A stretch of 64,000 nucleotides of DNA from Nitrospirota bacterium (GTDB taxonomy: Bacteria; Nitrospirota; Nitrospiria; Nitrospirales; Nitrospiraceae), in contig JAUXVD010000003.1 of NCBI GenBank assembly GCA_030684575.1, forward strand, positions 310,001 to 374,000, written 5' to 3'. A program made the position numbers and the translations under genes. Position 1 is the first letter of the stretch, and every line of letters starts with the position of its first letter. The notes under the pieces were generated by a model. That model did not search any database and had not been told where the DNA came from. It saw nothing but the letters and a program-made list of their open reading frames with translations. Of the stretch, positions 26,075 through 57,367 are shown piece after piece.

Positions 26075-26141
26075 TTTAACGATTTGTTAACACAAACTTG
26101 AGACTTGCGTGGCCGTTCCCTCGCACACCCAGCAGTAGACT
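26075..26141 (+). promoter_or_regulatory. Exopolysaccharide promoter module 1
   Basis: TTTAAC (26075), GTTAAC (26086) and CTTGAG (26097), 11 bp apart, then a conserved CTTGCG/TGGCC block and TAGACT (26136-26141), 44 bp after the second unit. A sigma-54-like GG-N10-GC is also present (26111-26124). The same layout stands at 34394 and 36859. Confidence 0.55.
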
Positions 26142-36858: not shown

Positions 36859-36924
36859 TTTAACATTTTGTTAACACAAACTTGATATTGGCGATGCCAT
36901 CGCTCTACCGGTGAACGATAGACT
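36859..36924 (+). promoter_or_regulatory. Exopolysaccharide promoter module 3 (exosortase operon)
   Basis: TTTAAC (36859), GTTAAC (36870) and CTTGAT (36881) at 11-bp steps, then TTGGCGATGCCATCGC (36888-36903) with GG-N10-GC, then TAGACT (36919-36924), 43 bp after the second unit. The gene start is at 37002. Confidence 0.6.
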
Positions 36925-48769: not shown

Positions 48770-50203
48770 ATGAAACGTGGATGGCGTCGGGCGGTCTGTC
48801 TCTCGGGAGGCCTTGTCTTTTCGGTCCTGTGCTGGTGGTCCGACGGTCACGCAGGCAAGCTGGAGGATCTCTTGTTGGAAAACAAGCAGATCACGATCGA
48901 TCAATGGATCAAGCTGAAGGCGGAAGAGGAAAAACTCCAGGTCAAGGAATTCGAAGAAAGTCGCGGTGTTGGCGACGTCCCGGTTCGCGAGCGTTGGTAC
49001 GAGAAGATCAGCATTCGTGGCTATGCGCAGCTCCGGTATAACTATACGATCAATAACGATCTGTTGCGGAGCAACCAGGCCGATCGTTCGATCTCTGGTT
49101 ACAACGAATTATTTCTTCGGCGCGGCCGGGTAATCGTGAGCGGGCAGCCGCATGAGCGGGTATTCATCTATGTCCAGCCGGAATTCGCGAGCCTGGTGGG
49201 CGGGACGGAACAGGCCGTCGCGCTCAGAGATATTTACTCCGACCTCTTTCTGAGCGAAAAGAAAGAATGGCGCATCCGGGCCGGCCTGTCGAAGGTTCCC
49301 TTTGGCTTCGAAAACATCCAGTCGAGTCAGAACCGGCTCGCGCTCGATCGAAACGATGCGCTGAACAGCGGGGTCCCGAATGAGCGGGACCTCGGGCTGT
49401 TTCTCTATTACGCACCGACGGCGGTACGCGAGCGGTTTCGAAGACTTGTGGACAGCGGACTGAAAGGATCCGGCGACTACGGAATGCTGGGCCTCGGCAT
49501 CTACAACGGGCAGGGTGTGAATACGAGAGAACGCAATAAAGACAAACACACCGTCTTCCACTTTACCTACCCCTACGAGTTTCCAGACGGACAGATCGTC
49601 CAAGTCGGCATGGATGCCTACCGGGGCCAGTTCAATGTGCAGACCACTCCTGTTGTTCCGACAAATGTCAATGCGGCTCAGGGCCAGGCATTTTCACCAA
49701 GGGTGACGAATAGCGGAAACTATCTGGACGAACGGGTCGCCTGGCACGTCGTCCTGTTTCCACAGCCCTTCGGCTTTCAGGCGGAGTATATGATCGGCCG
49801 TGGGCCAGAGTTGAACCAGGCCAGGACCGAGGTGGTGCTCGGGACCGTGCGGGGCGGCTATATACAGGCGTACTATAACTATCAATGCGATTTCTATTGC
49901 CAGAACATCATTCCATTTCTTCGGGTGCAGGAGTACTTCGGAGGAAGAAAGGCCGAACTGAATTCTCCCAGGAATTCCGTGCGCGAATGGGAAGTGGGTC
50001 TCGAGTACCAGTTTAACCGTGCATTGGAATTGACTGTGAGTTATGCCTGGGCCCAGCGGACGTCAGATCAGGCCAACTTTGTACCCGCCGGCTCTCCGTC
50101 CGGCGCTTGTGCGGTGGCGGGCTCGCAACTCGGATGCGTTCAGTCTCCCTATCAACTGCAGAGCGGGAATCTTTTGCGCTTCCAGCTGCAGTGGAGCTTC
50201 TAA
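48770..50203 (+). CDS. Phosphate-selective porin (OprO/OprP family)
   Basis: A 477-residue outer-membrane porin. Signal peptide 1-28 (ends SDGHAG). Residues 30-65 form a polar helical coil, as in other OprP-like proteins. The barrel starts at SIRGYAQLRYNYT; LFLRRGRVIVSGQPHERVFIYVQPEF and LFLSEKKEWRIRAGLSKVPFGFENIQSSQNR are strong Porin_O_P signatures; the last strand LLRFQLQWSF ends with Phe. The OprP pocket uses Arg and Lys ladders, which fits the many Arg residues here. GGAGGGCG precedes the ATG. It should admit phosphate or polyphosphate, in keeping with the Pho-type promoter. Confidence 0.88.
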   Translation: MKRGWRRAVCLSGGLVFSVLCWWSDGHAGKLEDLLLENKQITIDQWIKLKAEEEKLQVKEFEESRGVGDVPVRERWYEKISIRGYAQLRYNYTINNDLLRSNQADRSISGYNELFLRRGRVIVSGQPHERVFIYVQPEFASLVGGTEQAVALRDIYSDLFLSEKKEWRIRAGLSKVPFGFENIQSSQNRLALDRNDALNSGVPNERDLGLFLYYAPTAVRERFRRLVDSGLKGSGDYGMLGLGIYNGQGVNTRERNKDKHTVFHFTYPYEFPDGQIVQVGMDAYRGQFNVQTTPVVPTNVNAAQGQAFSPRVTNSGNYLDERVAWHVVLFPQPFGFQAEYMIGRGPELNQARTEVVLGTVRGGYIQAYYNYQCDFYCQNIIPFLRVQEYFGGRKAELNSPRNSVREWEVGLEYQFNRALELTVSYAWAQRTSDQANFVPAGSPSGACAVAGSQLGCVQSPYQLQSGNLLRFQLQWSF

Positions 50204-50309: not shown

Positions 50310-51035
50310 TCATTCGAGAGGTGAGGGGACGGCGGGGCCTGGCGACGGATACGATGCAGGCCTGCGCGGTGACAGCGCGCGATACAGTACAATCAACTCG
50401 CGATTGTCCCGATGGAACAATCTTGTAAGTCCGGTGACCGCCGTTTCCCGCCTGGCAGAAGGAGGGTCAAAGTCCAATCGTCCTCGTTGAGGTGCGAGCG
50501 ATCGCATGGGGGTCAACCGATCGTCGGTCGTATCGGCCACGCCGATGTCAGCACTGTAGTGTGTGGGTGAGCGGTAGTTCGCCAGGACGATGTGCAGTTC
50601 ATCTCCCTGGACGAAGAGTCCTCCGGAGGTTACTTCCCGGCTGGTGCCGGACAGGTACTTGGATTGATAGAAGGTGACGATTTCTTCCGCCGTCGCTTTG
50701 CCCAGTGCGATCGCCAGTACTGGTGCAAAGAACTGGACTTCGTGCTCCGTGAAGGCGGGATGGCGAGGGGGTAGGCTGGTATCGTCGTAGATCGGCAGTT
50801 TTGCCCAGGGCTCTTCGACGATGATCCCGCTCAGCACGGCTGCCAACTGTTCAGGAGTCAAGGACAGGGGGTGGGTATGTCCGTTCCCCTCGTTTACAGA
50901 ATGGTCGATTTCCAGTCGGACGAACGCTGTCGGTGTTTCGAGGATCGTGATTGTCGTAAATTCGGTTGGAGCGCATCCGGAAAGGAGCGGCAGGCTCAAG
51001 GCAAGAAAGGTACAAGAAATAAGTCGAATGGTCAT
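50310..51035 (-). CDS. Lipoprotein of unknown function
   Basis: A 241-residue lipoprotein with signal 1-19 and lipobox LSGC (Cys21 region). The mature part begins APTEFTTITILETPTAFVRL and has a central LSLTPEQLAAVLSGIIVEE helix block and LYRALSPRRPASYPSPGP at the end. No family recognised. It follows the PstS-like gene on the same strand by about 150 bases with a hairpin between, so the two may share a promoter at reduced expression. Confidence 0.7.
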   Translation of the reverse strand: MTIRLISCTFLALSLPLLSGCAPTEFTTITILETPTAFVRLEIDHSVNEGNGHTHPLSLTPEQLAAVLSGIIVEEPWAKLPIYDDTSLPPRHPAFTEHEVQFFAPVLAIALGKATAEEIVTFYQSKYLSGTSREVTSGGLFVQGDELHIVLANYRSPTHYSADIGVADTTDDRLTPMRSLAPQRGRLDFDPPSARRETAVTGLTRLFHRDNRELIVLYRALSPRRPASYPSPGPAVPSPLE

Positions 51036-51182: not shown

Positions 51183-52232
51183 CTAGTCGCGAAGTTTGAT
51201 CGGCTGTTCCCCGGCGGCGGTTCGGACTGGTGTCGACCACATCGCGATTAAACGAGTGAGTTCCATCGTCTGGAGAGCATAGTAGCCCTCGTCCACCACG
51301 ATCTGCTGGCCTTGCTGACTGAGCGCGAATTTCACGTACTCCGCGAGTGAGCCTGGCAGTGCGACTTTCGGAGCCCGGTTGACGTAGAGGTACAGCTGGC
51401 GTCTCAGAGGGTAGGATCCATCCATCGCCGTTTCAAATGTGGGCGCCACATACCTCCCGCCCTGGACCGTCGCCAGGGGAACCGGACGGAGTCCTGAGGT
51501 TCGGTAGCCGATGCCGCTGAATCCGATGCCATATCGATCCTTCATCAATTCAACCACGACGGATGCCGAGCCGGCGCCTACCGTCATGGTCTTCTTGAAA
51601 TCCGCCCCGTTTAAGACGTGCTCTCTGAAGAATGTTGCAGTGCCGGAATTACCATTCCGTCCGTAGATGTGGATAGGCGCCTCCACCCACCCCTCTTCCA
51701 ACAACATGGCGTCGCCCCACGAATTGACAGGATATCTCAGTCCGCGTCGTCGTTCTATGGAGAAGATGGCATCAACTTGTGCGAGGGTCAATCCTTCGAT
51801 CGGGTTGTCTTTGTGCACGAAGACTGCCAACGCATCGACGGCGACGGGTACCTCTGTGGGTTCGTATCCGAATTCACGCTTGAACTCGACGATCTCTTGA
51901 ACGGTCATACGGCGCGATATGGCGGCGACCTGCGCTTTCCCTTCCATGAGCTGAGCCAGGCCTGTCTCGGAGCCCGCACTGGAGACTTTGATCGTCAATC
52001 CAGGATACAGCTGCCGCAGATCATTCGCCCAGGATTCCGTCAGGGGCTTCATGGAATCGGAGCCTGCGATGGCAATCGTTCCGCTAAAACTCCCGACAGG
52101 CTGGTAGGGGAGGATATTCGAATCGAGGCCAGGCTTTATCTGAGCCTGTGCAGGACAGGCCATGGCCAGGATGACGGAGAAAGGGAGAATGGTTCGCGAG
52201 AGCATGGCCTGAAAGTATTTCAATAGTTGCAT
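51183..52232 (-). CDS. pstS: PstS-like phosphate-binding protein
   Basis: A 349-residue exported protein. Signal peptide 1-29 (ending CPAQAQ). The mature part has FSGTIAIAGSDSMKPLTESWA, with the SDSM loop that contacts phosphate, VSSAGSETGLAQLMEG, IAAISRRMT-like element (VAAISRRMTVQEI), and IYGRNGNSGTATFFREHVL, the 'R.SGT...F' ligand loop. The family binds phosphate with these residues. The start at 52232 is chosen for GGAAGG and the signal peptide; the longer frame to 52328 would begin between the promoter elements. A Pho-box-like repeat lies 100 bases upstream. Confidence 0.85.
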   Translation of the reverse strand: MQLLKYFQAMLSRTILPFSVILAMACPAQAQIKPGLDSNILPYQPVGSFSGTIAIAGSDSMKPLTESWANDLRQLYPGLTIKVSSAGSETGLAQLMEGKAQVAAISRRMTVQEIVEFKREFGYEPTEVPVAVDALAVFVHKDNPIEGLTLAQVDAIFSIERRRGLRYPVNSWGDAMLLEEGWVEAPIHIYGRNGNSGTATFFREHVLNGADFKKTMTVGAGSASVVVELMKDRYGIGFSGIGYRTSGLRPVPLATVQGGRYVAPTFETAMDGSYPLRRQLYLYVNRAPKVALPGSLAEYVKFALSQQGQQIVVDEGYYALQTMELTRLIAMWSTPVRTAAGEQPIKLRD

Positions 52233-52296
52233 GAGCCTTCCATAGGGTTGATCCAGCAAATACGAGAAGCGAGTCTTCTCTTCACTGAATGGATTG

Positions 52297-52351
52297 AATG
52301 TAATGGCCGAAGATTTCTTGAACATCAATAGATTGTTAACTCGGCGTTAAC
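52297..52351 (-). promoter_or_regulatory. Pho-box-like promoter of the PstS-like gene
   Basis: Two perfect GTTAAC hexamers 11 bp apart (52346-52351 and 52335-52340). On the minus strand a TACATT (52302-52297) follows 32 bp later as -10. GTTAAC is palindromic, so the box can be read in both directions; the regulator promoter is just beside it. Confidence 0.65.
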
Positions 52352-52394: not shown

Positions 52395-52450
52395 ATTTAC
52401 CGACAGTTAACACCACCCTAACGACCATTTTCCCTTGTCCGATCTATAGT
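52395..52450 (+). promoter_or_regulatory. Pho-box-like promoter of the PhoB-like regulator
   Basis: ATTTAC (52395), GTTAAC (52406) and CCTAAC (52417), 11 bp apart, then 22 bp and a good -10, TATAGT (52445-52450). Transcription would start at about 52456-52458, only a few bases before the ATG at 52460. Confidence 0.65.
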
Positions 52451-52459
52451 CACCTCGTA

Positions 52460-53167
52460 ATGTTGGCTACCCCACCATCTATGACCGTCGCGCGGAATAC
52501 GATTCTGATCTTCATGGAGGCTGAGCCATTCGCTCGGTCGATCAAGAAGGCCTTCGACGCGAGCGGATATCAGAGTACGATCGTGACGACCGAGTCTGCT
52601 GCCTATGCGGCAGCCAGGACATCCCTGCCCTCGCTGATCATCATCGATCGTCTCCAGAGGACCCTTACCAATTTGCGCCAACTCCAGACTCTCGTTGCCG
52701 TACCTATTGTCGCGGTGCAAGAGGGGACAGCCCCTTGTACAGACGACGATTGTATCCAAGATTACGACCACGGCATCGATCTCGTCATCTGCAGCCAAAG
52801 TCCTCGTGAACTCGTCGCGCGTGTGCGGGCCATCTTGCGGAGGCGGGAGCCGCGGCATGAATCAAATTCCTACTACAGTGCGGGCGCCGTTCGCATGGAT
52901 CTGGATCGTCACGAAGTAACTGTTACCGGCCGATTGGTCGAACTCACCCCGAAAGAGTTTCAGATCCTCCACCAGTTTCTTGAATCGCCCAGCCGGGCCT
53001 TCTCCCGTCAAGAAATGCTCAATCGGGTTTGGGGCGATGGATTTGCCCTGGAGGAACATGCTCTCGACGTCCACATCCATTCCCTCCGACAAAAGATCGA
53101 AGTGGATCCTGCCTGCCCCAAAATCATCGTCACCGTGCGTGGTATCGGCTACAAGCTGCGGGCCTGA
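52460..53167 (+). CDS. PhoB/OmpR-type regulator with degenerate receiver
   Basis: A 235-residue DNA-binding response regulator. The winged helix (about 140-235) is canonical: LVELTPKEFQILHQFLESP, SRQEMLNRVWG, ALDVHIHSLRQKIE and VRGIGYKL. The receiver (10-125) is not: the acidic pair of PhoB is replaced (FMEAEP), the acceptor Asp is kept in LIIIDR, but the Thr (Gln in IVAVQE) and the Lys of the 'TKPF' loop (ICSQSPREL) are missing. No histidine kinase is next to it. Probably recognises the 11-bp TTAAC repeats of this window, including those before its own gene. No ribosome binding site precedes the ATG and the -10 is nine bases away, so the mRNA may be almost leaderless; 52481 (MTVARN) is an alternative start. 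Confidence 0.85.
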   Translation: MLATPPSMTVARNTILIFMEAEPFARSIKKAFDASGYQSTIVTTESAAYAAARTSLPSLIIIDRLQRTLTNLRQLQTLVAVPIVAVQEGTAPCTDDDCIQDYDHGIDLVICSQSPRELVARVRAILRRREPRHESNSYYSAGAVRMDLDRHEVTVTGRLVELTPKEFQILHQFLESPSRAFSRQEMLNRVWGDGFALEEHALDVHIHSLRQKIEVDPACPKIIVTVRGIGYKLRA

Positions 53168-53352: not shown

Positions 53353-53736
53353 CTAGAATTCGTCGATGGAGACCGGTCGGAGTAAATCGCGAACGGAGAG
53401 GATTCCCACCACCGATCCATCCTTGGTCACACCGAGGTGCCGCGTCTGGTGTCTATTCATCAGGTCTGCCGCTTCGGTGAGAGGGCAGCGCTCTTCGATC
53501 CCGACAATCGGGCTGCTCATGATGTCTTCGACGGGAATAAAGTAGGGGCCGCGGTCAGAGCCGACGACCTTTCTGACGATGTCCGATTCGGTGACAATGC
53601 CGATGACGCGGCCTTCATGAGAGATCAGCACGCTGCCAACATTGCAGGCCTTCATCAGCTTGGCCGCCTCGATCACCGAGGTGCCCGTATCGACGGTCAC
53701 GAGATCTTTCTTCATCAATTGTCCGACTGTGATCAT
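53353..53736 (-). CDS. Tandem CBS-domain protein
   Basis: A 127-residue soluble protein made of one Bateman module: CBS1 (about 5-60: VGQLMKKDLVTVDTGTSVIEAAKLM, then GSVLISHEGRVIGIVTESDI) and CBS2 (70-125: VEDIMSSPIVGIEERCPLTEAADLM, HLGVTKDGSVVGILSVRDL). Such stand-alone proteins bind adenine nucleotides and sense energy state. GGAGGA stands four bases before the ATG at 53736; the frame could start 12 bases earlier. Confidence 0.9.
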   Translation of the reverse strand: MITVGQLMKKDLVTVDTGTSVIEAAKLMKACNVGSVLISHEGRVIGIVTESDIVRKVVGSDRGPYFIPVEDIMSSPIVGIEERCPLTEAADLMNRHQTRHLGVTKDGSVVGILSVRDLLRPVSIDEF

Positions 53737-54267
53737 CTGTTCCTCCATTCAATGTAATTGTATTTTATTAAGATGATACTACCTGGTCTGCATAGCGCCC
53801 CAGTTAGAGGTGTATTACCGGTGCGTAAATTTCAGTCCTGCCATGGAAACCAGGCACTGTGCCTGCCGTGCTGGCGATCGCTCTGTTCCTTTCAGCCATC
53901 TTGAGACTGGTTGGGTCTATTATTGCAGCGCGAGGCTCGACGACACCTGCAACTATTCTTCATGTTGGAATTGAGCTTCCATGGACAGCTTCATGTCATT
54001 GAGCAGGAAGAGCCAACTTATAAGCTGTGGACGCAGATTGCCAAGACCTACCTAGTCCTGGAAGACGATCTGCCGACGGATCAGGAGAAGCGATCGTAGG
54101 CGTATCAGGAGGGGCGAAGGCAGTGCAACGCACACTAACACTTGGGAGCACAAGTTCAAGCCAGAAGCGGAACGGTTGTTGCGGAGTATCCTCAAGAGTG
54201 GACCTTCGGTGCCGTAATTCAGGCCAGCCATCCCCCCTCCTCTAGGCAGGCGGCAACGTGCGACCGA
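53737..54267. other. Intergenic region, possible decayed gene
   Basis: About 530 bases. A frame near 53911-54099 has coding-like composition (LHVIEQEEPTYKLWTQIAKTYLVL) but no start signal and no family I recognise. It may be a remnant. The right end is the 3' flank of ppk. Confidence 0.4.
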
Positions 54268-56355
54268 TCAGAGCCCATCCTGGTTCCAGGTTCCAGCCTG
54301 TTCGAGCATACGCTGTTGTGTGTCCAGCGGGGGCTCACCAAGCTGGGGAAGCACTCGTTCATACATGCCTTTCTCGTCCATTCGGCGCAGCTGTGCCGTG
54401 TCGCGCAGATGGGCGAATAGAATATCATCGCGAATGGCCCGGCGAAGGTGCGGGGCATTGACGGGGAACAGCACTTCTACCCGACCGTCCAGGTTTCTCG
54501 GCATCAGGTCGGCGCTGCCTAGCCATAACTCCTCCTCATGGCCCGCTCGAAAGAAGAAGATGCGGCTGTGTTCGAGAAAGCGGCCGACGATCGAGGTGAC
54601 GGTAATCCGTTCGCTCACGCCGCTGACTCCTGGCCGCAGGCTGCAGACACCCCGCACTTGCAAATCGACCGTCACTCCGGCTTGCGAGGCACGGTAGAGT
54701 GCCTGAATACAGGCCGGATCTGTGAGAGCATTGAGCTTGAAGGCGATATAGCCCGTTCCGCTGTCGCGATGGAAGGCGATCACCCGCTCGATTCGATCGA
54801 GTATCCTGGTACGCATTTCCTCCGGGGCAACAAGGAGACAGCGGTAATGGCTCTGTCCGGCATAGCCGGTTAACGAATTGAAGAGCATCGCCACATCGGA
54901 GGAGATCGCAGGGTTGCTGGTGAAGAGCGCCATGTCTGTATAGACCCTGGCCGTGGCGGGATTGTAGTTTCCCGTACTCAGGTGGACGTAGCGGGCAAGT
55001 CGGTCTCCTTCGCGCCGCACGACCAGACACATCTTGGCGTGCGTCTTGAGTCCGACGAGCCCATACACTACGTGGACTCCGGCCCGTTCGAGCTCCTTGG
55101 CCCAGAGAATGTTGTGCTCTTCGTCGAACCGCGCCTTGAGTTCGACCAGCGTGGCGACTTCCTTGCCGTTGGCCCGCGCCTCCATGAGGGCTTCGACCAC
55201 GGGAGAATCGGGACCGACGCGATACAACGTTTGCTTGATGGCCAAGACCTCGGGATCTCTCGCGGCTGCGCGCAGGAAATCCACGACCGGCAGGAAGCTG
55301 TCGTAGGGATGATAGAGCAGGATATCGCGTTGACGTATCGCCGAGAACATGTCGGATTGGGTTAGGATCGGGGAGATCTTCTGCGGCATCGGCGGATCTT
55401 TTAGATCGGGCCGGTCGAGCTTAGTCAGCTCGATCAGATCGGATAGGCCGAGCGGGCCGGAGACAGCGTTGAGCTGGTTGGCCGAGAGACGGAGGTTCTG
55501 TGCGAGGATTTCGCGGATTCGCTCCGGCATCTGGGCGCTGACTTCCAGCCGTACGGCCGATCCGAAGTGGCGTTGCCGCAGGCTTTCTTGAATCGCCAGT
55601 AGGAGATCGGCGGCTTCGTCGATTTCAAGGTCAGGATCTGCGTCGCGAGTAACGCGGAATGGATAGGCCTCCGCCACCTCGCACCCGGGAAATAAGAGAT
55701 CCAGGTTCGCGGCGATGACCTCTTCGATCCACACGAAGGTGCAGGGGACTTGGTTGGTGCCTTCTTGGTTGAAACACTGTTCGTACGGCATCCGGAGGAG
55801 GCGTGGAAACAGGCGCGGTACCTTCAGGCGTGCAAACCGCTCCCCGTGATCTACCTGTGTCACGACGATTGCGAGGTTCATACACAAATTGGAGATGTGG
55901 GGAAACGGATGAGCGGCGTCGAAAGCCAGCGGGGTGAGTGTCGGGAGGATCGTTTCTTGAAAATACTCGCGTAGGCGCCGCGCGTCGGAGGCCGGAATCT
56001 CCGCATAGGACAGCACCTGAATTCCGGCTTCTCGCAGGGCTAGCTGAAGGTCCTGCTCCCAACAATCCATCTGTTGTGCCAGCAGCGTCGCGAGGGCTTC
56101 TTGAATGGCCCGAACCTGCTCCTCTGGCGTGTGGCCGTCCGGCGGAGCCTCGACCGAGCCGGTTTGCATTTGCCAATACAAGCCAGACATGCGGATCATA
56201 AAGAACTCATCCAGGTTACTGCTAAAAATGGACAGGAACTTGAGCCGTTCGAGGAGGGGATGGCGGCAATCCAACGCTTCGCCGAGTACCCGTTCGTCGA
56301 AGCGAACCCAGCTCAGTTCGCGGTTGATATACAGGGAGGGATCTGTCAAATCCAT
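54268..56355 (-). CDS. ppk1: Polyphosphate kinase 1
   Basis: Makes long-chain polyphosphate from ATP, membrane-associated, 695 residues, normal family length. The start LYINRELSWVRFDERVL is the family N domain. Further on: LLYHPYDSF, RVGPDSPVVEALMEA, ELKARFDEEHNI and GLKTHAKMCLVVRRE; YVHLSTGNYNP carries a conserved His and RNLDGRVEVLFPV a second block of the PLD-like catalytic core. GGAGAGG stands about nine bases before the chosen ATG. A Pho-type repeat lies 105 bases upstream. Fits the CYTH-CHAD protein and the phosphate genes here. Confidence 0.95.
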   Translation of the reverse strand: MDLTDPSLYINRELSWVRFDERVLGEALDCRHPLLERLKFLSIFSSNLDEFFMIRMSGLYWQMQTGSVEAPPDGHTPEEQVRAIQEALATLLAQQMDCWEQDLQLALREAGIQVLSYAEIPASDARRLREYFQETILPTLTPLAFDAAHPFPHISNLCMNLAIVVTQVDHGERFARLKVPRLFPRLLRMPYEQCFNQEGTNQVPCTFVWIEEVIAANLDLLFPGCEVAEAYPFRVTRDADPDLEIDEAADLLLAIQESLRQRHFGSAVRLEVSAQMPERIREILAQNLRLSANQLNAVSGPLGLSDLIELTKLDRPDLKDPPMPQKISPILTQSDMFSAIRQRDILLYHPYDSFLPVVDFLRAAARDPEVLAIKQTLYRVGPDSPVVEALMEARANGKEVATLVELKARFDEEHNILWAKELERAGVHVVYGLVGLKTHAKMCLVVRREGDRLARYVHLSTGNYNPATARVYTDMALFTSNPAISSDVAMLFNSLTGYAGQSHYRCLLVAPEEMRTRILDRIERVIAFHRDSGTGYIAFKLNALTDPACIQALYRASQAGVTVDLQVRGVCSLRPGVSGVSERITVTSIVGRFLEHSRIFFFRAGHEEELWLGSADLMPRNLDGRVEVLFPVNAPHLRRAIRDDILFAHLRDTAQLRRMDEKGMYERVLPQLGEPPLDTQQRMLEQAGTWNQDGL

Positions 56356-56421
56356 TGCTCGTCGACCTCTCCTCACGAGGACTCGCATGGCAGTTTGCCG
56401 TCCAGTGGCCAGCTGGCCACT

Positions 56422-56477
56422 AGCATAGTCAGGTCTCGTCCATAGGCTCAAGGGCCTGAGGTTAACTTCGTGTAAAC
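56422..56477 (-). promoter_or_regulatory. Pho-box-like promoter of ppk
   Basis: On the minus strand GTTTAC (56477-56472) and GTTAAC (56466-56461), 11 bp apart, then 33 bp and TATGCT (56427-56422) as -10. Predicted leader of about 60 bases. Confidence 0.5.
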
Positions 56478-56514: not shown

Positions 56515-56560
56515 GTTAACAGAATCCTAACTGGTATCGTATCGCCTTCCTCAGTATCTT
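56515..56560 (+). promoter_or_regulatory. Pho-box-like promoter of the frameshifted PEP-CTERM gene
   Basis: GTTAAC (56515) and CCTAAC (56526), 11 bp apart, then 23 bp and TATCTT (56555-56560). The ATG is at 56605 with GGGAGGTGG before it. Confidence 0.5.
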
Positions 56561-56604
56561 CACCCCACTGAGGTGTGCTTATTTCATGATGGGAGGTGGT
56601 GGTT

Positions 56605-57367
56605 ATGAAGTGGACGACTTGTGCCTGGACCTTCGCAGTCTGTCTGTGGGCCATCCTAACTCATGCCGCCGTTCTCGATCCCTGGCCTTCACGCGCTGGG
56701 GACGCTGAACGCGTCTGATGCCATCTCCACCAACACCGACACGTTGCAACTTACGGGTGGAACGTCCTACACCGGCGTGCTTGATCCGGTTTCCGGTGCA
56801 AGCAACTTCGCGTTCGATGACATTACCGGCACGAGCCTGTCGATCTTCGCAACCCGCACCTTGGGCTTGCTCTCAAGAGGAAATATCGCATTCACCGGAA
56901 CGATCGACCTGCTCGGAAGTGGCGGATTGGACATGGTGGGGTCAGATTCCATGACACTGGCTAACGTAAATGCGCTGGGCGATGGACAGACTGTGTCGCT
57001 TACGGCCAATCAGATCAATCTTGGCGGAACAGTGAATTCCGGCAGCCGGGCTCTTAGCGTCAGCGCAGTGGAACCGATTAACCTGTCCGGAGACATCGGG
57101 AGCGGAGTCATTAGCCTGTCAGGCAGGGAAGGTTTGGTCCTTTCAACAGGAGCAGGAGCGACTAAGGGAACGGTAGTCTTGGGCTCGGGGCTGGTCACTC
57201 TGACCGGCGGGAGCACCTCGGGGCAGATCGTCATTTCCTCCACCACGGGCCAGATTGTGGGCTCTCCGGGTGTGACCGTCGTTGCCCCAGTTCCGGTACC
57301 TGCGGCATCTCTCTTATTCGCCACCGGGATTGCGGTGCTTGGGGTCGTGAAGCGGCAAAGAAGTTAG
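56605..57367 (+). CDS. PEP-CTERM (VPVP) protein, frameshifted in signal peptide
   Basis: The expected start (ATG 56605, behind GGGAGGTGG) encodes a signal peptide, KWTTCAWTFAVCLWAILTHA, then runs out of frame. The rest is open in another frame from about 56660: FSIPGLHALGTLNASD, a Ser/Gly/Thr-rich body of repeated short strands, and a VPVPAASLLFATGIAVLG helix ending KRQRS. Removing one base in GCCGCCG (56655-56662) would join the frames to give THAAFSIPG, a natural cleavage site. So it is a young pseudogene, a phase-variable gene or a sequencing error. Without the fix, translation could only begin at 56663, without a signal. Confidence 0.7.

Follow-up and report, generated by a model that had tools for sequence, protein, structure and literature searches.

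Gene content of the locus

The features found around the regulator gene in the window (the whole 64-kb stretch of DNA that was analysed) are listed in Table 1. The open reading frame of the regulator starts with the ATG at 52460, and its stop codon ends at 53167.

Table 1. Features of the regulator locus, with positions counted in the window
Feature	Positions	Strand	Basis or remark
Porin_O_P gene, phosphate-selective porin type	48770..50203	+	6.3e-28; synteny 36/52 loci
Conserved lipoprotein-like gene adjoining pstS	50310..51035	-	Synteny 37/52 loci; no Pfam match
pstS-type phosphate-binding protein, divergent, likely start ATG 52232	51183..52328	-	PBP_like_2 1.4e-37; TIGR02136 6.4e-60
Pho-type box 1, GTTAACTCGGCGTTAAC, exact	52335..52351		pstS/regulator divergent promoter region
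Pho-type box 2, GTTAACACCACCCTAAC, 1 mismatch	52406..52422	+	Shared pstS/regulator promoter region
TATAGT, possible -10 element of the regulator promoter, 3' of box 2	52445..52450	+	Read from the sequence
Regulator CDS, OmpR/PhoB-type pseudo-receiver, 235 aa	52460..53167	+	70 distinct relatives
Predicted pseudo-receiver domain, residues 12-130	52493..52849	+	AF2 pLDDT 86, pTM 0.82; Foldseek; VIA-align
D63 codon, acceptor Asp position	52646..52648	+	D 62, E 7, G 1 (n=70)
Q87 codon, conserved Thr position	52718..52720	+	Q in 42/70
C93 codon, beta4-alpha4 loop	52736..52738	+	Cys 56/70
C98 codon, helix alpha4 N-terminal turn	52751..52753	+	Cys 49/70
C111 codon, conserved switch Lys position	52790..52792	+	Cys 54/70, never Lys
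Winged-helix DNA-binding domain, residues 138-235	52871..53164	+	Trans_reg_C 1.5e-25; strongest purifying selection
Small CBS-domain protein	53353..53748	-	2.7e-26; synteny 36/52 loci
Polyphosphate kinase ppk	54268..56451	-	Four PP_kinase domains
Pho-type box 5' of ppk, GTTAACTTCGTGTAAAC, 1 mismatch	56461..56477		Box search
Second Pho-type box 5' of ppk, GTTAACAGAATCCTAAC, 1 mismatch	56515..56531	+	Box search

Synteny was counted within 4.5 kb around the regulator in the 52 relatives with enough flanking sequence. A pstS relative was present in 45 of these loci, in agreement with the sequence-only reading of this DNA, which had placed the gene beside pstS. That reading had also found no adjacent kinase gene, and a PhoR-like kinase was found within 4.5 kb in none of the 52 well-covered loci, so that the PhoR partner by which a PhoB is recognized was missing from this distance. 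A complete PhoB-PhoR pair, the search for which had been proposed as a check, was present elsewhere in the genome (L084), beside a PiT-type transporter gene and a PhoU-like gene. The pst operon of the genome was likewise located elsewhere (L323:4808-9530), where a porin gene, a second pstS and lipoprotein genes are also present, and the phosphate module of the window looks like a duplicate set relative to this main operon. A further canonical PhoB-type gene was found 13 kb downstream of the regulator.

Two other observations were made in this region. Four consecutive genes that resemble a Tn7-like element (TnsA-, TnsB-, TnsC- and TniQ-like; L051:7230-12251) were identified by eye on contig C3 of genome G000, about 6 kb past the window end and close to the canonical PhoB-type gene (C3:376269), on its 5' side. 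In the PEP-CTERM-like gene at 56585-57367, the apparent signal-peptide start (ATG near 56605) was out of frame with the body of the gene (ORF 56663-57367), a possible frameshift.

Domain composition, receiver residues and predicted fold

The C-terminal half of the regulator matched PF00486 (Trans_reg_C, E 1.5e-25) in the profile search, as expected of an OmpR/PhoB-type protein and of the canonical winged helix described earlier. The receiver half gave no match to PF00072 (Response_reg) and was not among the 122 Response_reg matches obtained in the genome. The profiles that best matched the whole protein were those of PhoB type, with scores far below their cut-offs (TIGR02154, 135.8 vs 296.2 bits); the best canonical copy in the genome (247.4 bits) also missed the TIGR02154 cut-off, which is thus strict for this lineage.

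The regulator was compared by alignment with RegX3 and with four canonical regulators from its own genome. The canonical motif VEDE was replaced by FMEAE, LLDLML by IIDRLQ, MLTA by AVQEG and TKPF by ICSQ. D63 aligned with the acceptor position, and Q87 and C111 stood at the positions of the conserved Thr and the switch Lys, respectively, so the earlier claims of a retained acceptor Asp and of replaced Thr and Lys were borne out. The claim that the acidic pair was replaced also held, with one qualification: Met19 occupies the first position, but E20 is still acidic at the second in this protein, a position that is acidic in only 3/70 proteins of the family. A gap shift restoring Thr and Lys, named in advance as the result that would overturn this description, was ruled out, since residues 64-130 hold no Lys. 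Among the residues of a canonical phosphorylated receiver (DD pair, Asp, Thr and Lys), only the Asp was therefore found. As a receiver homologue without key phosphotransfer residues, the protein falls under the published definition of a pseudo-receiver (PMC12632262); it is not an aspartate-less receiver, Asp63 being present in it and in 62/70 relatives.

The full-length model (pLDDT 78.7) matched OmpR/PhoB regulators, and the receiver alone, predicted from 56 sequences, reached a pLDDT of 86 and a pTM of 0.82. This receiver model gave TM values of about 0.8 to the receivers of PhoB, KdpE and YycF by Foldseek and Z values of about 17-18 by VIA-align, including Z 17.6 to activated PhoB (1zes_A, 1.9 A over 114 residues). 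The N-terminal receiver fold is thus predicted to be kept despite the lost residues; structure prediction and alignment against PhoB-type regulators had been proposed beforehand as a check. Among the closest Foldseek rows was the E. coli PhoB receiver D10A/D53E (2jb9), "constitutively active" according to its PDB title, and the family members with Glu63 resemble this mutant. Response_reg was detected by Pfam in 18 of 56 family members. PDE8A_N matches (26/56 members, best 7.7e-6) were read as a shared receiver-like fold and rejected as a sign of kinship.

Distribution of the family and selection

Strong relatives of the regulator (70 distinct proteins) were found in 68 of the 175 genomes of Nitrospiraceae, the family to which the window belongs, and relatives of comparable score were confined to this family in a sample of 395 genomes of the phylum. 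Named carriers were Nitrospira moscoviensis, with two copies, and Ca. N. defluvii. Among the matches listed from 84,980 species genomes, the next ones were regulators of Bacillota and others, with at most 37% identity over most of the protein. Besides the main family, L101 and other hits at about 160-190 bits made up a second, more distant group of regulators with degenerate receivers; in genome G231, a member of this group was located about 3.5 kb from a main family member and retained Cys at the Lys position.

The loss of receiver residues was shared throughout the family. Lys at the switch position or a full acidic pair was seen in 0/70 relatives, position 19 was never acidic, and the Thr position was occupied by Thr or Ser in 4/70. 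The Y-T coupling residues, which form one normal allosteric pathway of receivers (PMC12632262), were also gone, with Leu at K-3 in 49/70 and Gln at the Thr position in 42/70. The acceptor position was followed directly by Arg in 67 of the 70.

Values of dN/dS over 16 pairs were 0.08-0.34 for the receiver and about 0.01-0.15 for the DNA-binding domain; these values are low in both domains, which argues that neither half is decaying and that both are constrained. A decaying or dead gene that has lost its receiver function is therefore barely credible, and the pseudogene reading was ruled out by dN/dS. One relative (G007:C46:104891-105578) was split across two overlapping frames, by an assembly frameshift or a broken gene, and would speak for such decay, but the purifying selection in both domains and the synteny and boxes conserved family-wide stand against it.

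Another account is that the regulator is a weak but genuine response regulator, D63 being phosphorylated inefficiently by PhoR or small phosphodonors. The genome has a PhoR, the Asp is retained in 62/70 proteins, which is a counterpoint to phosphorylation independence, and some pseudo-receivers that retain the Asp may still be phosphorylated inefficiently; phosphorylation is not necessarily lost when DD, T or K is substituted (PMC12632262). However, acidic pair, Thr and Lys were lost together in nearly all members, position 63 was Glu in seven relatives and Gly in one, the Y-T coupling residues were lost and no PhoR-like kinase was near any of the 52 loci, so that this account appears quite improbable. 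The earlier suggestion that the protein may act independently of normal phosphorylation, through its level, its dimer state or a ligand, is supported by the selected, family-wide residue loss, the lack of a nearby PhoR-like kinase and the separate PhoB-PhoR pair.

Pho-type boxes

The boxes follow the pattern of a GTTAAC-N5-GTTAAC repeat. The genome has a single exact repeat, which lies between pstS and the regulator gene, and the one-mismatch sites included box 2 and the two sites 5' of ppk; 7 of the 12 box sites in the genome were located inside the window. In the upstream regions of the relatives, a box with at most one mismatch was found in 32/70, against 0.1 expected. The two boxes first noticed here are accordingly far beyond chance, but the regulator does not lie between them as had been stated, both being upstream of it.

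An exact box was present in 41/68 genomes with the regulator gene and in 14/107 without it, a count that is confounded by phylogeny. In the regulator-less genomes the exact box is found 5' of pstS, ppk, CBS or porin genes; the idea that the boxes are private to the regulator was therefore dropped, and since the box marks phosphate genes in relatives without the regulator, it is probably the shared Pho box of the lineage and may be read by canonical PhoB. GTTAAC-N5-GTTAAC is thus proposed, from its conservation, as the probable Nitrospiraceae Pho box. It presumably resembles the TTAACA repeats of B. subtilis PhoP. An earlier description of such a Pho box in Nitrospira was not found in the literature searched.

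The recognition helix of the regulator is conserved in the family but unlike that of the canonical regulators (ALDVHIHSLRQK vs TVDVHIRRLKQK). This bears on the possibility that the regulator acts as a competitor or decoy, which would occupy Pho boxes or heterodimerise with canonical PhoB and so dampen the Pho response, an output other than that of the main reading proposed below but compatible with it. Phosphate genes are served by one box type whether or not the genome carries the regulator, a canonical PhoB-type regulator lies near a family member in several genomes, and the conservation of the helix also fits; nevertheless, an interaction with PhoB is purely hypothetical and shared sites are not assured when the recognition helices differ, which makes a decoy role unlikely.

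Two near-identical intergenic elements (TTTAACNNTTTGTTAACACAAACTTGA) were observed at 26075-26091 and 36859-36875, in a polysaccharide/exosortase gene cluster. They are related to the Pho-type box, have a longer shared tail and are possibly the site of another regulator.

Conserved cysteines and the dimer interface

Conserved Cys was found solely at positions 93 (56/70), 98 (49/70) and 111 (54/70) (next commonest position, 6). In the predicted secondary structure, C93 falls in the loop between beta4 and alpha4, C98 belongs to the opening turn of alpha4, and C111 stands where beta5 ends. All three were present in 41/70 relatives and none in 7/70; the co-occurrence in 41/70 was reached by 0/5000 column shuffles, which ignore phylogeny. 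When the changes were placed on a tree, the concordant and discordant independent pairs were 4 to 0 for positions 98/111 and 4 to 0.2 for 93/98 (p 0.125, below significance with so few pairs), so that co-loss on independent branches is only suggestive of a joint change of the triad positions. For a link between the state of D63 and the Cys, no more than 2 changes were available. Cys at 129 was present in 6/70, and a single conserved linker Cys of the RitR type is thus not a feature of the family. Some members are without one to three of the Cys, and the triad is therefore not essential in every member.

C98 is at the position that we take to be Ile88 (ArcA numbering) of the alpha4-beta5-alpha5 dimer interface of the OmpR family. 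Among the interface residues, D107, A120 and R128 were each conserved in 70/70 and R121 was Arg in 43; the hydrophobic patch was altered, with C98 and with Asp or Glu at 101.

The interface also bears on whether the regulator is constitutively active and controlled by its level, its degenerate receiver forming an active-like dimer, its output tracking transcription from the Pho box (PhoB feed-forward or autoregulation) and its Cys being structural. The Pho-type boxes 5' of its own gene, the closeness of the receiver model to the PhoB D10A/D53E structure, the seven relatives with Glu63, the absence of the D10 acid from nearly all members and the invariant Asp107, Ala120 and Arg128 are consistent with this. 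However, a structural role poorly explains why exactly three Cys, that at the Lys position included, were selected across 70 proteins, and the hydrophobic interface patch is altered; such control by level is possible, though not likely.

Proposed mechanism

The proposal builds on what was computed, namely residue loss, Cys conservation, the predicted fold, synteny, box conservation and selection. The regulator is read as a Nitrospiraceae-specific OmpR/PhoB pseudo-receiver factor in a Pho module, independent of phosphorylation, with thiol state as its input and with PhoB-PhoR feeding its expression, a reading to which a probability of roughly 0.55 is given. The protein would not be switched by Asp phosphorylation; probably another signal is sensed, for which redox state or a metal may be considered, or the amount of the protein governs its activity. 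It would be expressed from, and probably act on, the Pho-type boxes beside the pstS/porin/CBS/ppk module, a DNA target and a direction of regulation that we infer. The separate, normal PhoB-PhoR system would supply the phosphate signal through expression of the regulator, in a feed-forward or modulating loop. With the phospho-pocket apparently replaced by a conserved Asp/Glu and the triad C93, C98 and C111, the most likely direct input would be the thiol state, through a reversible disulfide or a bound metal, and gating of this kind would alter the alpha4-beta5-alpha5 dimer face that carries C98. Otherwise the regulator would have no input beyond its own level.

A more specific version, in which C93, C98 and C111, possibly joined by Asp/Glu63 as a fourth ligand, would form a site for a metal or an Fe-S cluster or a thiol switch, is doubtful. 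The regulator would then be a one-component redox or metal sensor through which the electron-transfer state of nitrite oxidisers is tied to polyphosphate and the acquisition of phosphate. If the dead pocket was indeed remodelled into a site for a cofactor or for redox chemistry, a two-component regulator would have been turned into a one-component one. No known Fe-S receiver was found in the literature search.

Comparison with known regulators

Like PhoB of E. coli and other canonical OmpR/PhoB regulators, the protein has their domain order, winged helix, (beta-alpha)5 receiver fold and phosphate-gene setting, in which the box is a tandem direct repeat with an 11-bp period. Unlike PhoB, it is without the acidic pair, Thr, Lys and a nearby PhoR gene, its recognition helix is changed and its TIGR02154 score is low, as given above.

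RitR of Streptococcus pneumoniae (an orphan of OmpR/PhoB type) and the atypical HP1021-type orphans combine a degenerate receiver with cysteine-redox control, by one linker Cys in RitR and one Cys at DD+19 in the HP1021 type (PMC12632262; PMC5965902); the regulator differs in having three Cys, located in what was the phospho-pocket, in helix alpha4 and in the loop between beta4 and alpha4, and in keeping the acceptor Asp. The oligomeric state of the cyanobacterial response regulators RpaA and RpaB (OmpR type) and Rre1 is responsive to thiol redox, but their one to three Cys are elsewhere and their phosphorylation machinery is kept (PMC9321951). HP1043, ChxR and CosR are likewise phosphorylation-independent OmpR-type orphans with a degenerate receiver and a working winged helix, but their regulons are unrelated and their sequences no closer than the superfamily. 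To our knowledge, none of these three has a Cys triad like that of the regulator.

A 2025 review says of bacterial pseudo-receivers that their activating mechanisms 'remain a mystery', and a Cys at the Lys position is used by none of the mechanisms given there (PMC12632262). The protein is a real and conserved pseudo-receiver regulator, probably of phosphate genes, that looks independent of phosphorylation, with a Cys site that may be novel. It also speaks for a second level at which the Pho response is controlled in Nitrospira, which are important nitrite oxidisers. Beyond what was first noted for this gene, the analysis adds the Cys triad, the phylogenetic spread and the boxes as probably a general Nitrospiraceae Pho box. 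A defined, lineage-wide family is thereby described in which a conserved Cys has taken the place of the switch Lys and two further Cys are nearby in the sequence, and its natural members without one, two or all three Cys are built-in controls. One N. moscoviensis copy carries the triad and the other C93 alone (L131 and L229; DCYV at 63/93/98/111 in the latter). A triad-less subclade (L133, L134 and L234-L239) has Thr, Met or similar at 98 and Asp or Glu at 111, and in this subclade another regulator, canonical where it was fully read (L134), is located about 1.6 kb away beside pstS.
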